From assembly GCA_947628655.1 (NCBI GenBank), contig CANRAS010000004.1, positions 1 through 64,000 of the forward strand: a DNA stretch of 64,000 bases, written 5' to 3'. This stretch comes from an uncultured Clostridia bacterium (GTDB taxonomy: Bacteria > Bacillota > Clostridia > Oscillospirales > Ruminococcaceae). The translations under genes and the position numbers were made by a program. Below are positions 33,048 through 39,590 of the stretch, in pieces. Under the pieces are notes generated by a model. It had not been told where the DNA came from, ran no database searches, and worked only from the letters and a program-made list of their open reading frames with translations. Numbering within the stretch: the first letter of the stretch is position 1; each line of letters starts with the position of its first letter.

Positions 33048-33162
33048 ATCAAAATCAGCCGTCAGCGCACGAAAAGAAAACGTTTACATTCGTTTACAAA
33101 GAATTTGTGTACAAAAACCACAGACTGTTTTTTATACATTTGTAGAAATTAAACAAAAACTA

Positions 33163-33191
33163 TTGACATAGAGCGCATTTTCAGTTATAAT
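33163..33191 (+). promoter_or_regulatory. Perfect sigma-A promoter of the pseudo-FtsK operon
   Basis: TTGACA (33163-33168), 17 bases, TATAAT (33186-33191). The start codon of the 1324-residue gene lies 68 bases downstream. Confidence 0.93.
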
Positions 33192-33258
33192 TATTTTAGA
33201 TGATTGACGCGGGATAATTGTGCCCTCGTCGGCCCGAAATCGTAAAGGAGTTTTTGCT

Positions 33259-36200
33259 ATGTCTGAATATGTCAACGGATTACTAGGTAACCTTATTGAA
33301 CTGTCTTTGGAGGAAAAGCGCATCGCGCTGTCTATTGACGCCGCGCATAAGGAGTATACCGATTACTGCGCCGATTCCGAGGCGGATTTGAACAAGAAAA
33401 TCGAGGAAATAAATAAGAAAATCGAAAAACTCGATTATTATATTGATTACGCGCGTACACACGCTCACGGCGACGACCTTGAGGCGGCGGTTGAACCGTT
33501 CGATACGCCCGACGGTACTTTGGAAAGCATTCGCCAGACGATAAAGCTGGATTCTCACGACGACCCCAACGCCGAAACTCTTTACACGAAAGCAACGGGC
33601 AAAAAGCTGTACTATGAGGCTGAAATCGACCGTACCCGCAAACTTATTGAGGGAAGTAAAGTTCAGGCAAAGCGTCAATACGACAGCGATGTTGCAAAGC
33701 TGAACAGCACGAAAGAGGGGCATTTAGACAAAGTGCGCCGCTATGTGCAGTCGAATGAGTTTTCGGATTATCTGAAAATGCTGGTATACGACAAGTCCGC
33801 GTTTAACAGTCCCGGAACTATTAAACTCAGCGACGACGACCACGTAACTTTGGGTCAGCGCCGCGTAAGGCTTACCGTGCCTATGGACGTGGAACAGGAC
33901 GTTGCGCTGAACTCCAACGGCGAATACAACGCCGCCGCACGAACGATCGGCGCGCCTTATTACGTTTCCACGAAAAAGGGCGGCACGCTGTTTTTGGAGC
34001 ATGACGACAGAAACGGTCAGTATCTGCTGGGCGGCGTTCAGAGATTGCTTTTGAATTTCGTTAAGTATTTCGGCGATAATCTTTCGTATGTGATGTTTTG
34101 CGAACCCGAACATTTCAGCGTTGAAAGTTTGGGTAATATATCCGCACTCGGAAAGGGCATTAATCCGCTGATAACCGTTCCGAAAACGCTCGAAGAGGCG
34201 ACAGACAAGCTCGCTAAATTCACCGCAAAAGCGCAGTCCGCGCCCACGCCGAATATGGTTTCGAGAATACTCGTCCTGCAGGAATTTCCCGAAAAGTATT
34301 CTCCCGATATAGTCCAAAAGGTAGTTGAACTTTGCAAAAACGCGGAGCAGACGGGTTCGCTTATTGTTTTGACGCACGGTTTTTCAACGAATATGAGCCC
34401 CGAAGAATCGGAAATTCGCTCTATGGCGGAAGTTATCCGCAGCAGGAACGGCGGTTTCTGGATCGAACGCCTGCACGAAAGCCTGTTCTGGTACTCCGCG
34501 CCGTCTGATATTTCCGAAGAAGTACGCCAAAAGTATGTGGAACAACGCCGTCAAGAGGCATTAAAGGCAGTTCAGGAGGCGGAGGCAAGCGCTCCCGCGC
34601 CTGCTGAAGTTCCCGCGCCTACACTTGAAAAACCTGTAGAGAAAGCGCCCGAACCCGCGCCCGTAACCACTCCCGCGCCTGCGGTCGAGAAAGCACCCGA
34701 ACAGCCTGTTGCGGTAAGTACTCCCGCGCCCGAAGAACCGAAAGCGCCCGCAATGTTCGATATGGACAGCGAGCCTGATAATTCCGAGCCGAAAGACGAA
34801 CTTGAACTTGACAGTCAGGATATGTCCGATATGTTCGCGTCCGATGAACATCCTGTTGCCGATAATATCAACAGAAAACAGGATTTCGATATGTCCGATA
34901 TGTCCGAAGATTTGATGTCGGCGAATATGGAAGAACCCGCCGAAGAACCTGCGGACGAGCAAGATCTCACGGCAGAAGAAACACCCGCCGATAACGAGGA
35001 AACAGCCGAGGAAGAAACTCCCGAAACTCCCGCCGAAACGGATATGACCGAGCCGACAGAGAATTTCGAGGAAACCGCAGAGGATAATGCCGAGGAAAAG
35101 GACGACCTCGAACACTTAAAGACCGACGAAAACGGCGAACCCATTCCCGCGCATATTCTGTTCAATGTTCCCAGACCCAAGCCCGAACAAAAGGACGTTA
35201 CGATGACAGTCGTGTCGGAACTCAGCGACCAGCTTCCGCCTCCCGAACCCGAACCTGTTATGGAAAATCCGTTTGATTATGTGGATTATCGTCCCACAGA
35301 GAAATTAGACCCCGAACTTACATACAGGATTACAGACCGACCCGCCGCGAAACCTGCGCCCGAACCTGCTCCCGCTCCCGAACCCGAAAAGTCGCGCGCA
35401 ACCATTATGAGCGTTATCGACGCGGGCAGAAGAAAGATAGGCTCGTTTGTCGATAACCGCAAGGAAAGTTTTGCTAGAAGGTCGGAACAATCGGCGACGG
35501 CACAGCCCGCACCCGAACCGCCGATTGAAAATACAACTCCCGCATTTGCGGAAAATAATGCTAATAATTCGTACAATCCGTACAGTTCAAATAGTGCGCC
35601 TGCGCCTGCTGCGTCCGCGCCCGTGGAAGAACCTAAGCCCGAACCCGTTATCGAAACACCGCCCGCAGAGGAAGTATTTGAAAAAGGCAAGCGTATTCTT
35701 CCCGATATTCCGATTGGCAAGAACGTTGACGGCGACCCGATAACGCTTGATATTTCGGGCGGTATCACCTATATCTGCGGAAACCGCAGCGACGAGCGCT
35801 CAACTATCGTTGACCGTGTGATAACGGAAATAATCGCGAAAACACACCCCGATGATGTGGAATTGTGGATGTTCGACTGCGGAGAGGGCGAGTTCACGGA
35901 GTATAACGACAACCCCGACGAGCATATCAAGTACCTTGTACCCGACATCGGCGCGGACACGGCGGCAGATGTTGCGGATATAATCTCCGCGGAAATGGAA
36001 CACCGCGGCGCGAAGTTTGAGGAAAACGGCTACACGAGCCTTGACGACGTACCCGCAGACGTTTATATGCCGCGTATAGTCGTTGCGATAAACGCGTTCC
36101 CGAAGTTCTCTGAAAATATCTTCGGCACTAAGAAGTATTTCGGCAGAAATTACAGTAACCGTCTTGCAAATATTTTCAAGAGAGGTCTGAATTACGGTAT

Positions 36201-37233
36201 ACATTTTGTATTGGTCGGCGATAAATTCTCCGAAAACGGCGAATATCCTGCGTGTCTTGACGGCTGTCCGATTTACAGCGCCGTTGCGGTAAGCGGAAGA
36301 GACCGCCACGCGCATATGATATTCAGCAGAATAAAAATGTACGACAACGAAAAAGAGTCGCTTAAAAACATTCCCGCAGGATGCGCGTTCACAGCGGACG
36401 AGAATAGTGCTGACGGGCTTACGCTCGTGCGCATTTCGGGCGAAAACGCCGTGAATACCCACACCTATAAGAAAGTTTCCGAATATTCCGAGAATGTCGA
36501 GGAATATGTGGATAAATTGCCGTTTATCGGTGACAGAAGAACAGCGAACAAGTTCGACGACCGCCGTTCGTTCCGTGAGGAGCAAATCAAGGCGCGCGAG
36601 GACGACGAGTGTATCCTGTTCCTCGGTGAACCTTGCAGATTTATGGGCGAATATCCCGTTCGGCTGTTCGATGATTTCGGTGAAAATATCCTTACAATCG
36701 CGCCGACGCGCGACAAGAGCAGCGTTGCTCTCGTCATAAGAGCCGCGCTCCGTTCGCTGGAGGAGCAGGGAATAAGAACCGAAATCCTCGCAGGCAGAGG
36801 AAATCCTGTATACAAAGAACTTATCAAGACCGACGACCTTGAGAATGTTTCGGTATTTGAGGGCGCAAGGGCAGAGGATCGCATAAAGGACCTTGCGATG
36901 TCGCTTGACGACGGCGAGCGTTCCGACACTTTCGAGATTATCTTAGGAGGAGATCTGCTGGTAGCGTCGATGAACGCCGATGATATGCTCCCCGTACTGA
37001 AACGCGCGTTAGTCAACGGTCCTAGAATGGGCGTACACTTTATGTTCGTTTCGGGAAGTATTGCTCAAATGGAAGCGGGTTTCTTGTCGCTGTTCAGACA
37101 CAAACTCGTATATTCCTGCCCGTACAGCGAGGCGGAAAAACTTCTGCGCGACCCGAACTGCGATCTGCCCGAAACCGCGTTCAGACTTTCAAATGATTAT
37201 GACGAACTTACGCTTTTGCCGTATATAATGTAG
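33259..37233 (+). CDS. 1324-residue protein with three degenerate FtsK/EssC-like domains
   Basis: I recognise no named family. Residues 1-165 are mostly coiled coil. A first P-loop-like domain spans about 230-415: QYLLGGVQRL where Walker A would be, RILVLQEFP at the Walker B position, then SLIVLTHG. Residues 430-805 are a Pro/Ala/Glu-rich linker with DMSDM repeats. A second domain (815-1065) opens IPIGKNVDGDPITLDISGG and has CGNRSDERST where FtsK has GTTGSGKST, then MFDCGEGEF and RIVVAINAFPKF. A third domain (1110-1324) has IAPTRDKSS. None keeps the Walker A lysine in GKS/T form. There is no signal peptide or membrane helix. AAAGGAG sets ATG 33259. The three-domain plan recalls EssC of type VII secretion, but nothing else of that system is here. 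Confidence 0.75.
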   Translation: MSEYVNGLLGNLIELSLEEKRIALSIDAAHKEYTDYCADSEADLNKKIEEINKKIEKLDYYIDYARTHAHGDDLEAAVEPFDTPDGTLESIRQTIKLDSHDDPNAETLYTKATGKKLYYEAEIDRTRKLIEGSKVQAKRQYDSDVAKLNSTKEGHLDKVRRYVQSNEFSDYLKMLVYDKSAFNSPGTIKLSDDDHVTLGQRRVRLTVPMDVEQDVALNSNGEYNAAARTIGAPYYVSTKKGGTLFLEHDDRNGQYLLGGVQRLLLNFVKYFGDNLSYVMFCEPEHFSVESLGNISALGKGINPLITVPKTLEEATDKLAKFTAKAQSAPTPNMVSRILVLQEFPEKYSPDIVQKVVELCKNAEQTGSLIVLTHGFSTNMSPEESEIRSMAEVIRSRNGGFWIERLHESLFWYSAPSDISEEVRQKYVEQRRQEALKAVQEAEASAPAPAEVPAPTLEKPVEKAPEPAPVTTPAPAVEKAPEQPVAVSTPAPEEPKAPAMFDMDSEPDNSEPKDELELDSQDMSDMFASDEHPVADNINRKQDFDMSDMSEDLMSANMEEPAEEPADEQDLTAEETPADNEETAEEETPETPAETDMTEPTENFEETAEDNAEEKDDLEHLKTDENGEPIPAHILFNVPRPKPEQKDVTMTVVSELSDQLPPPEPEPVMENPFDYVDYRPTEKLDPELTYRITDRPAAKPAPEPAPAPEPEKSRATIMSVIDAGRRKIGSFVDNRKESFARRSEQSATAQPAPEPPIENTTPAFAENNANNSYNPYSSNSAPAPAASAPVEEPKPEPVIETPPAEEVFEKGKRILPDIPIGKNVDGDPITLDISGGITYICGNRSDERSTIVDRVITEIIAKTHPDDVELWMFDCGEGEFTEYNDNPDEHIKYLVPDIGADTAADVADIISAEMEHRGAKFEENGYTSLDDVPADVYMPRIVVAINAFPKFSENIFGTKKYFGRNYSNRLANIFKRGLNYGIHFVLVGDKFSENGEYPACLDGCPIYSAVAVSGRDRHAHMIFSRIKMYDNEKESLKNIPAGCAFTADENSADGLTLVRISGENAVNTHTYKKVSEYSENVEEYVDKLPFIGDRRTANKFDDRRSFREEQIKAREDDECILFLGEPCRFMGEYPVRLFDDFGENILTIAPTRDKSSVALVIRAALRSLEEQGIRTEILAGRGNPVYKELIKTDDLENVSVFEGARAEDRIKDLAMSLDDGERSDTFEIILGGDLLVASMNADDMLPVLKRALVNGPRMGVHFMFVSGSIAQMEAGFLSLFRHKLVYSCPYSEAEKLLRDPNCDLPETAFRLSNDYDELTLLPYIM

Positions 37234-37252
37234 GACCTCGGAGGTGAATGGT

Positions 37253-37603
37253 TTGAGTTTAATTGATGAAGTGAAGGCGTTGGGCGCAAATACCGACGAC
37301 GCGCTTTCAAGATTTATGGGAAACGCCGAACTTTACGAAAGAATGATAAAAAAACTGCCAAAGGTCATTGATGATTCGCCCGTGATGAGTTTCGCGCAGT
37401 CGGGGGATTATGAAACCGCCGCGTCGAACGCTCACGCGCTGAAAGGCGTAACGGGAAATCTGTCGCTTGACCCGCTTTACGCGAATTATACGGCGATAGT
37501 CGATATGTACCGCAGCGGCGAAAATGAAAACGCAACGGCGCTTTTAGCTGAAACGCTAGACGTCCAGCAGAAATTTGTGGATGTTATAAAAAAATATATT
37601 TGA
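37253..37603 (+). CDS. Hpt-domain phosphotransfer protein
   Basis: This 116-residue helical protein has the histidine phosphotransfer motif AHALKGVTGNL, with the phospho-acceptor His61. It lacks any kinase or receiver domain, so it must pass phosphate between proteins. The likely start is TTG 37253, with GGAGGTG 6 bases upstream; a GTG at 37244 overlaps that site, and the ATG at 37248 is out of frame. It lies between the pseudo-FtsK gene and the response regulator, spaced by 19 and 6 bases, so the three form one operon. Confidence 0.88.
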   Translation: MSLIDEVKALGANTDDALSRFMGNAELYERMIKKLPKVIDDSPVMSFAQSGDYETAASNAHALKGVTGNLSLDPLYANYTAIVDMYRSGENENATALLAETLDVQQKFVDVIKKYI

Positions 37604-37609
37604 AGTGGG

Positions 37610-38677
37610 ATGGTTGTTGTGAAGAATTCAATTTTGATAGTAGACGATCAGGAAATCAATCGCGTTATCTTAGCGGAGCTTTTCAAGGACGATTATAATG
37701 TCATTCAGGCGGAAAACGGAGAGCAGGCGTTAAAGATAATAAACAGCGATAATTCGATAATCGCTATTATGCTTGATTTGATTATGCCTGTTATGGACGG
37801 AATGTCCGTGCTGATTGAACTGAACCGCACAGGGAAAATATACCATATTCCCGTGTTTATCATCACGGCGGCGGACAATATGCAGCTTTTGCAAAGCGCA
37901 TACAGTCTTGGCGCGGTAGATGTAATTTCAAAGCCGTTTCGTATGTGCTTTATCAAGTCGCGTATCAGCAACATAATAGAACTTTATCGTCACAGAAACG
38001 AACTTGCCGAAATGGTCAACGAAAACGTTTCTAAAATTACACAGCTTAACGATAAAATGGTTGAAGTGCTGGCAACGCTTATCGAGTTCCGCGATGTCGA
38101 GTCGGGCGAGCATGTTAAGAGAATACGCGCGATTACGCTTTCGCTCCTTACGAGAATATGCGAGATGTATCCCGAATACTATCTTGATAAAATGGCAATC
38201 GACAAGATAGCCCAAGCGTCAATTCTTCACGACGTCGGCAAAATAGCGATCCCCGACAGTATATTGCAAAAGCCCGGTATGCTCACTCCCGAAGAGTTCA
38301 AGATAATGAAACAGCACACGGTCAAGGGCTGTGATATTCTCGCACAAATGCCGTCGGATATTATGGACGAGGAAGTTTATCGTTACAGTTACGATATTTG
38401 CCGTCACCACCACGAACGCTGGGACGGACGCGGTTATCCCGATGGACTGAAAGAGGACGAGATACCCATTTGGGCGCAGGTAGTAGCTGTAGCGGACGTT
38501 TTTGACGCGCTGACTTCACCGAGAGTTTACAAGGCGGCGTTTGATTATGACACGGCAATCGCTATGATAAATGACGGTGACTGCGGACTGTTTAATCCCA
38601 AAGTGCTGAAAGCGTTTAACGAAGTCGTAGGCGACATCATTAAACAGCGTCAAGAGGCGCTGAGTTCCCCTAAATAA
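37610..38677 (+). CDS. Response regulator with HD-GYP phosphodiesterase domain
   Basis: An N-terminal receiver domain (about 5-125) has Asp12/Asp13, phospho-acceptor Asp56, Thr86 and Lys108. After a helical linker comes a complete HD-GYP domain (about 150-345): His207-Asp208, HHE at 267-269 and GRGYPDGL at 273-280. Such proteins hydrolyse cyclic di-GMP when phosphorylated. The metal-site residues are intact, so activity is expected. The start is ATG 37610 or GTG 37619. The Hpt upstream is the obvious phosphate donor; the kinase must be elsewhere. The operon ends at 38682-38707. Confidence 0.93.
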   Translation: MVVVKNSILIVDDQEINRVILAELFKDDYNVIQAENGEQALKIINSDNSIIAIMLDLIMPVMDGMSVLIELNRTGKIYHIPVFIITAADNMQLLQSAYSLGAVDVISKPFRMCFIKSRISNIIELYRHRNELAEMVNENVSKITQLNDKMVEVLATLIEFRDVESGEHVKRIRAITLSLLTRICEMYPEYYLDKMAIDKIAQASILHDVGKIAIPDSILQKPGMLTPEEFKIMKQHTVKGCDILAQMPSDIMDEEVYRYSYDICRHHHERWDGRGYPDGLKEDEIPIWAQVVAVADVFDALTSPRVYKAAFDYDTAIAMINDGDCGLFNPKVLKAFNEVVGDIIKQRQEALSSPK

Positions 38678-38681
38678 ATAA

Positions 38682-38712
38682 AAAAGCGAGGAGAAATCCT
38701 CGCTTTTATTTT
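38682..38712. terminator. Bidirectional terminator shared by two operons
   Basis: AAAAGCGAGGA pairs with TCCTCGCTTTT around GAAA. It serves the HD-GYP operon and, through its A-run, the leftward hisS-addBA operon that ends at 38727. Confidence 0.93.
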
Positions 38713-38726
38713 ATGATGTCTGCGGT

Positions 38727-39590
38727 TTATGCGCCGACAGCAGTTATAGAATATGTGAACGCCTTTTCCTCGCCGCCTTTTAGAATAACGATACCGCGCT
38801 TTTCGGCAAATACCCCCGAACAGTCGTCAAAATCCGCCGAACCGCACCACGGCTCAATACAAAGAAACGGCGCGTCCTTTGCCTGCCAAACGCCAAGACT
38901 TGTGAAATCGGGGAAATCCACGCGCACGCCCTTGCCGTCTTTTCCGAGGAGCATAACAGAGCGGGATTTGAGTTTGTCAAAGTAGCAAACGTCGTTATAG
39001 AACATCTCGTGGTTCAGATGAACAACATTGTCGTTTTTAAGTATTTCACGGCGGTTGTTTTCTTCGTGCAGACCTGTTTCAAGGTTGTAGTTCGGCACGG
39101 CGGCGTCCTCCAATTTTTGAAACTCAAGCCGATAATCCGAAAACTCGCCGTCACAGGCAAACGCGGGGTGAGCGCCGATACAGAACGGCATTTCCGTTTC
39201 GGAATTGTTCGTTACGCGATAAGTGACCGTCACGCCGTCGGTTTTCAGCGTATACCTTACGGTAAACTTGAAATCAAACGGGAACATTTCTTTCGTGTAA
39301 TCATTTTGTTCGAGCGAAAACAGCGCGGACGTTCCCGAAATTAATTCGGGAGTAAGTTCAAGGTCGCGCGCAAAGCCGTGCTTTGTTATCCTGTATTCCT
39401 TGCCGTTTATAAGAGTTTTCCCGTCTTTGAGCGTTCCTATCATCGGAAACAGCAGGGGAGAGGTTTTCCCCCAAAATGCGGGGTCGGCGCGCCACATAAT
39501 TTCCCGCCCGTTTACCGCAAGGCTTTTCAGTTCCGCGCCCTTTGAAACGAGTTTCGCGGAGCAGTTTTCGTTTTTAAGCAATACTTCCAT
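38727..39590 (-). CDS. Aldose 1-epimerase-family protein (LacX-like)
   Basis: The 287-residue protein matches the galactose-mutarotase-like beta-sandwich family: FPMIGTLKDG, KHGFARD with the catalytic-type His, and IGAHPAF with the second His. LacX/YeaD-type members act on sugars or sugar phosphates, and the substrate is unknown. A GGAGG site precedes ATG 39590. It is the last gene of the leftward operon, 14 bases after the beta-propeller gene. Confidence 0.85.
   Translation of the reverse strand: MEVLLKNENCSAKLVSKGAELKSLAVNGREIMWRADPAFWGKTSPLLFPMIGTLKDGKTLINGKEYRITKHGFARDLELTPELISGTSALFSLEQNDYTKEMFPFDFKFTVRYTLKTDGVTVTYRVTNNSETEMPFCIGAHPAFACDGEFSDYRLEFQKLEDAAVPNYNLETGLHEENNRREILKNDNVVHLNHEMFYNDVCYFDKLKSRSVMLLGKDGKGVRVDFPDFTSLGVWQAKDAPFLCIEPWCGSADFDDCSGVFAEKRGIVILKGGEEKAFTYSITAVGA

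Follow-up and report, generated by a model that had tools for sequence, protein, structure and literature searches.

An EssC-like protein family without an ATPase consensus, found in one genus of Ruminococcaceae and accompanied in one clade by Hpt and HD-GYP genes

The window analysed here is a stretch of 64,000 nucleotides from an uncultured Clostridia bacterium of the family Ruminococcaceae (GenBank assembly GCA_947628655.1, contig CANRAS010000004.1, positions 1 to 64,000). On its plus strand, a three-gene unit encodes a large protein of 1324 residues, a stand-alone histidine phosphotransfer (Hpt) protein, and a response regulator with receiver and HD-GYP domains. The data suggest, with slightly better than even confidence, that the large protein represents an offshoot of the coiled-coil EssC-like proteins that is confined to one genus and catalytically dead, likely a scaffold, and that in one clade the neighboring pair relays phosphate from a kinase to the HD-GYP protein.

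The large protein consists of: a charged N-terminal region (residues 1-195, 33259-33843); an FtsK-like domain without a P-loop, D1 (residues 195-430, 33841-34548); an acidic, proline- and alanine-rich linker (residues 436-800, 34564-35658); an FtsK/EssC domain, D2 (residues 806-1075, 35674-36483); and a further FtsK-like domain without a P-loop, D3 (residues 1075-1324, 36481-37230). Pfam detects FtsK_SpoIIIE in D2 only (residues 817-937, E 6e-9). The other domains emerge from profile-to-profile alignment with hhalign against a template of six coiled-coil EssC-like proteins, from which the 737-residue protein of locus L147 was left out. Here, D1 matches template D1 with a probability of 96.7 (E 4.2e-10, 195 columns), D2 matches D2 at 99.6, and D3 matches D3 at 97.4 (E 1.3e-11, 233 columns). 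Off the diagonal, window-family D2 reaches template D1 at 90.5, and the remaining comparisons stay at or below 71. As controls, the columns of each of four regions were shuffled 40 times; these 160 shuffles gave at most 2.2, with D1 shuffles at most 1.4. Reversed profiles gave at most 0.2, and none of four unrelated ortholog sets exceeded 3.2. When each template row is left out in turn, D1 stays at 93.3-96.7 and D3 at 95.7-97.6. Taken together, these comparisons show, as far as profile alignment can, that D1, D2, and D3 descend from an EssC-like architecture.

The template proteins represent the coiled-coil EssC-like FtsK ATPases of WXG100/TerY-P loci, which are described beside Type III-A CoCoNuTs. 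PMC11090510 (section 10) presents them as EssC homologs with three ATPase domains, only D2 being predicted active, with WXG100 partners and with a coiled coil at the N-terminus instead of the FHA and membrane parts. In agreement with that description, each of the six template proteins carries exactly one Walker A string, located in D2. The window protein shares with this group three FtsK-type domains, a D1 and D3 without a P-loop, and a soluble-looking N-terminus that appears to replace the FHA domain and membrane helices. Because the described group already lacks the P-loops of D1 and D3 (PMC11090510), their absence here is inherited, and therefore only the change in D2 is new. A first-pass annotation of this DNA had proposed three FtsK/EssC-like domains that had all lost the P-loop. 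The domain-wise matches bear out the three domains; the loss itself is particular to this family in D2 alone.

The D2 P-loop position lies at 35779-35802, starting from residue 841, and the Walker B position starts from residue 939. None of the 21 full-length proteins has a Walker A consensus in D2, and the window protein has no Walker A string anywhere. The Walker B Asp of D2 is lost in 20/21 proteins, where Asn or Ser replaces it, and is kept in that of locus L049 only. Within the P-loop, the first Gly is kept in 20/21 and the second Gly is acidic in 19/21. The Lys position holds Arg in 17/21 and Lys in 4/21, with Lys-Thr in 3/21 (L042, L044, L046). Judged from these motifs, the D2 change most plausibly reflects a loss of ATPase function, and therefore the large protein is unlikely to be an ATP-driven motor. 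The earlier description of D2 as FtsK/EssC-derived without the Walker consensus is thus upheld. As a separate observation, the conserved acidic residue and Arg found where Gly and Lys belong may have a structural or ligand role.

In a phylogenetic tree of D2 that includes 7 of the 21 window-family domains, these group with EssC D2 and coiled-coil-group D2 (98/91), apart from EssC D1 and FtsK. The D2 domain is thereby allied with the EssC/EccC proteins of Type VII secretion, and a low-confidence structure model of D3 has EccC as its top-ranked structural match. In contrast to EssC of the Type VII secretion system b (T7SSb), the window protein has no FHA match among the Pfam families shown, no transmembrane-like segment (highest 19-residue hydropathy 1.3), and no Walker motifs in D1 and D2. 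It scores 31 bits against the NCBIfam EssC family T7_EssCb_Firm, for which the cut-off is 778. The lack of a hydrophobic stretch and of a Walker A string also distinguishes it from the FtsK/SpoIIIE DNA translocases; the strong FtsK match of its own genome sits at G000:C5. It departs from the coiled-coil EssC-like group in several respects: the long acidic linker; the absence of the Walker consensus in D2; the lack of WXG100, VWA, kinase, and PP2C among the eight window neighbors scanned; its confinement to one genus; and the Hpt and HD-GYP genes alongside it in one clade.

The large protein is nonetheless maintained. Ratios of nonsynonymous to synonymous substitution rates (dN/dS) were computed for seven species pairs, hand-picked for closeness, six of them from clades without the adjacent Hpt/HD-GYP pair and none containing the window protein. 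Values range over 0.01-0.08 for the N-terminal region (residues 1-190), 0.05-0.16 for D1, 0.08-0.20 for D2, and 0.06-0.25 for D3; the linker, computable in 6/7 pairs, gives 0.15-0.49. In the pair L043/L045, D2 is less constrained than the linker. These substitution ratios show the large protein to be kept under purifying selection, with its domains maintained. In 7/7 pairs the N-terminal ~190 residues are the most constrained part, above every FtsK-type domain, which points to the N-terminus as the main functional surface. This region is charged and is a putative coiled coil, as the first-pass annotation labeled it.

The linker fits its earlier description as long, acidic, and proline-rich (D+E 24%, P 16% over residues 436-800), and its length ranges from 82 to 380 residues over the 21 proteins. 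In the protein of genome G431 (L118:1-2931), it opens with near-perfect tandem repeats of ~15 residues each, and differences in repeat number may be a source of linker variation. At two loci, L051:6547-10615 (G028) and L054:3-2340 (G026), the large gene appears as two open reading frames (ORFs), with the break in the D1-D2 linker, through either a real split or sequencing errors. Some protein alignments used 15 of the 21 full-length proteins.

As far as searched, the large protein is restricted to one genus. A whole-protein search gave long matches in 27/37 genus genomes; the other matching genomes (3 of the genus and 5 of 24 from other families) gave short matches around D2 only, as FtsK proper would. 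With a profile of the N-terminal 430 residues, 3/394 genomes of the order were matched, all three of this genus, leaving the large protein in 0/391 other genomes of the order. Six further genus genomes added five carriers, and G019 holds a 35-residue fragment at a contig edge. For the genus as a whole, the large gene is present in 32/43 genomes, fragmentary in 1, and missing from 10, several of which come from incomplete assemblies (completeness 69-99%). Only one relative has a name, Ruminococcaceae bacterium UBA5579 (L033), which matches at 83% over D2-D3.

The Hpt/HD-GYP pair follows a different distribution. It was counted over all 43 genus genomes; among the 32 with the large gene, 16 carry it next to that gene and 7 at another place, 8 have no pair or an incomplete one, and 1 (G033) is a contig-edge case. 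One of the 8 without a complete pair, G036, has Hpt alone. Since the large gene is kept in genomes without the complete pair, the relay is not essential to the large protein. An HD-GYP ortholog, defined by at least 58% identity, or by 61% over a contig-edge piece in G031, occurs in 24/43 genus genomes; 24/24 of these have the large gene, and 0/10 genomes without the large gene have the ortholog. Shared ancestry could explain this association. On a tree of 30 of the 32 large-gene genomes (G011 and G026 left out), rooted by assumption on two long-branch rows, adjacency forms one clade (96/92) and requires one change. The three-gene operon is confined to that clade. The unit had been called self-contained, and failure of the three genes to stay together across related genomes had been named beforehand as evidence against it. 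That description applies within the one clade, and the genes stay together in half of the large-gene genomes.

The Hpt protein (37253-37603) is read from a TTG start, a GTG at 37244 being possible, and scores 20.2 bits against Pfam Hpt (E 7e-4), under the cut-off of 24.6. Its phospho-acceptor His, in an H-x-[LIM]-KG motif, is present in 25/25 sequences, window included. The response regulator (37610-38677) matches Pfam Response_reg (4e-21) and HD_5 (5e-31), and the receiver phospho-acceptor Asp, the HD, and the GYP are present in 23/23 sequences, again including the window. Both proteins keep their catalytic residues, in line with the earlier claim of a phosphate relay to a phosphodiesterase with intact metal ligands. 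By its motifs, the HD-GYP protein would be a cyclic di-GMP phosphodiesterase. In the window's own genome, 31 matches to receiver and 12 to GGDEF domains were counted, and the one receiver ORF checked there (L066) is a hybrid kinase with HisKA, HATPase, and receiver domains.

Several observations concern the pair in its own right. Stand-alone modules of Hpt and receiver-HD-GYP have the same catalytic residues and gene order as the window pair, which differs in standing in an operon with a pseudo-ATPase, in one clade. One such paralogous pair (541 residues, 45% identical) stands alone in the own genome at G000:C13 (L125:4211-6179), and many genus genomes contain similar pairs. Among the genomes that have the pair elsewhere, six (L111, L112, L113, L114, L115, L116) have an HD-GYP ORF of about 710-720 residues. 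The three of these that were read (L111, L112, L115) contain the receiver-HD-GYP unit twice over; the HD motif of the second copy is YD, and so this copy looks degenerate. In G024, the Hpt reading frame appears interrupted (L050:8125-8474), through either a real change or an assembly error.

These results can be assembled into a model of how the large protein would act. In the parent group, D2 would be the only ATPase, and here it lacks the Walker A consensus and the Walker B Asp. As a scaffold, the protein may use its N-terminal region and D1, as the most conserved parts, to hold partner proteins. D2-D3 may form a docking or assembly platform, the flexible acidic linker joining both halves. 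Contacts between FtsK-type domains may hold the scaffold together, presumably as an oligomer. In the one clade, the Hpt protein would take phosphate, probably from a hybrid kinase, and pass it to the receiver, and the phosphorylated receiver would set the activity of the HD-GYP domain, i.e. cyclic di-GMP breakdown. Scaffolding, oligomer formation, contact with the relay, the feeding kinase, and cyclic di-GMP hydrolysis are all steps that we infer; the link between the large protein and the phosphorelay is plausible. A more far-reaching version is doubtful: that an EssC-type motor, on losing its last ATPase site, has become an ATP-independent scaffold gating a phosphorelay to HD-GYP. Such a pseudo-translocase would be a signaling hub, tying a cell-envelope or nucleoid cue to cyclic di-GMP breakdown, with the relay taking the place of the kinase, phosphatase, and VWA genes of its active relatives.

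Several points weigh against a dead EssC-like scaffold joined to a relay. The N-terminal profiles find no match in the template (hhalign probability 0.3, below the best shuffle). The structure model of D1 is poor, and its listed structural neighbors are pyridoxal phosphate (PLP)-type enzymes. In the D2 tree, window-family D2 sits on a very long branch, nearest to EssC D2 (89/80) and not to the coiled-coil group; a tree constrained to place window-family D2 with that group is not rejected (p-AU 0.245), leaving the sister between the group and EssC. The altered D2 P-loop is itself conserved, as G-x4-[DE]-[RK] in 18/21. Finally, in the 8 genomes described above the large gene persists although the pair is absent or incomplete; in one of them, G011, only ~80 bases separate the end of the large gene from the convergent epimerase-like gene, and the pair is not there. 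The last of these points leads to a strong rival, which is a real possibility though short of an even chance: the operon would be a shared transcription unit only, and the pseudo-ATPase and the Hpt/HD-GYP pair independent modules that were joined once. The single change to adjacency on the tree, the genomes with the pair elsewhere or incomplete, and the paralogous pair that stands alone at G000:C13 all favor it. It accounts less readily for the HD-GYP ortholog being found solely in large-gene genomes, for which shared ancestry offers a way out, and for the co-directional, close spacing of the three genes in the adjacent clade.

The conserved P-loop bears on another alternative, that a non-canonical P-loop allows D2 to bind or even hydrolyse nucleotide and the protein acts as a nucleotide-controlled switch or weak motor. 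The conserved altered loop together with Lys-Thr in three proteins leaves room for a non-hydrolysing nucleotide site, and in many rows an acidic residue still follows the position of the lost Walker B Asp. Set against the acidic second Gly, the exchange of Lys for Arg, and the loss of the Walker B Asp, a nucleotide-dependent D2 is very unlikely. The large protein could instead derive from a mobile secretion or defense cassette of the WXG100 type, as a domesticated remnant that now serves in defense or as a cassette inhibitor. A search of the order for EssC led to a different protein, L126, which comes from another bacterial family within the order and whose only P-loop lies in the middle domain. 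Its locus (L126:3776-13373) is a coiled-coil EssC-like locus in which five genes besides the large one were scanned; these include kinase, VWA, and PP2C genes and a gene for a WXG100-like protein that scores under the Pfam cut-off. The L141 locus has the same partner set, and a protein-kinase domain occurs in 4/6 template loci (L126, L141, L143, L145). The architecture nearest to the window protein is thus found in loci with such partners, and PMC11090510 regards the operon of these EssC-like proteins as likely mobile and suggests that it may be a stand-alone cassette for secretion or defense. Against this, the window's own genome has no EssC and no WXG100 protein over the cut-off (best WXG100 match 14 bits), a weak point because the WXG100-like proteins of L126 and L141 are also under the cut-off (17-21 bits). 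Stronger objections are the presence of the gene in 32/43 genus genomes, often near housekeeping genes, and the purifying selection on it. A domesticated remnant is accordingly improbable, if somewhat less so than a nucleotide-dependent D2. A Pfam scan found no WXG100, VWA, kinase, or PP2C among eight window neighbors and none of these among 10 neighbors in L048, L049, and L055; neighbors at the other large-gene loci were compared with window genes only.

The unit at 33163-38707 is confirmed as real, with its promoter, three genes, and terminator. A sigma-70 type promoter, TTGACA-17-TATAAT, lies at 33163-33191; it matches the consensus at 12/12 positions, as the first-pass annotation had said in calling it perfect, and is the top of 10 matches within 7 kb. 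Among the upstream regions read for 13 of the 21 full-length large genes, TTGACN-17-TATAAT is present in 12/13, window included, and missing from L038. Directly 5' of the -35 box, several orthologs have a palindrome, TTGTACAA, and an A-rich run, a possible operator; the window copy of this stretch (33140-33158) has 3 mismatches and alone is not above chance. The large gene extends over 33259-37233. Its mechanical ORF opens at GTG 33220, and the start is moved to ATG 33259 because of the orthologs and an AAAGGAG ribosome-binding site at 33244-33250. Gaps of 10-19 bases between the large gene and Hpt and of 6 bases between Hpt and HD-GYP, followed by a terminator-like hairpin with an 11-bp stem at 38682-38707 (both strands scored), agree with the tight packing and terminator noted earlier.

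The hairpin is common to the operon and a convergent aldose-epimerase-like gene (38727-39590). On that side of the unit, the neighbors also include a gene without a Pfam match and a UvrD-type helicase-nuclease; on the other side lie YfhO, NUDIX, Mur ligase, M20 peptidase, and VanY-type genes.

Among the literature matches listed, no paper joins an FtsK/EssC pseudo-ATPase with Hpt and HD-GYP proteins. The large protein is a natural example of an FtsK-superfamily motor protein that lacks the ATPase consensus in every domain and yet is kept by selection, and it could show what proteins of this superfamily do besides pumping. Its active relatives accompany protein kinases and phosphatases, and the window protein, in one clade, a phosphorelay. 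The sister lineages provide a natural experiment, since the relay lies next to the large gene in some, at another place in others, and is missing from others still. If the link to the relay is true, EssC-like proteins would be signaling platforms as well as secretion motors.

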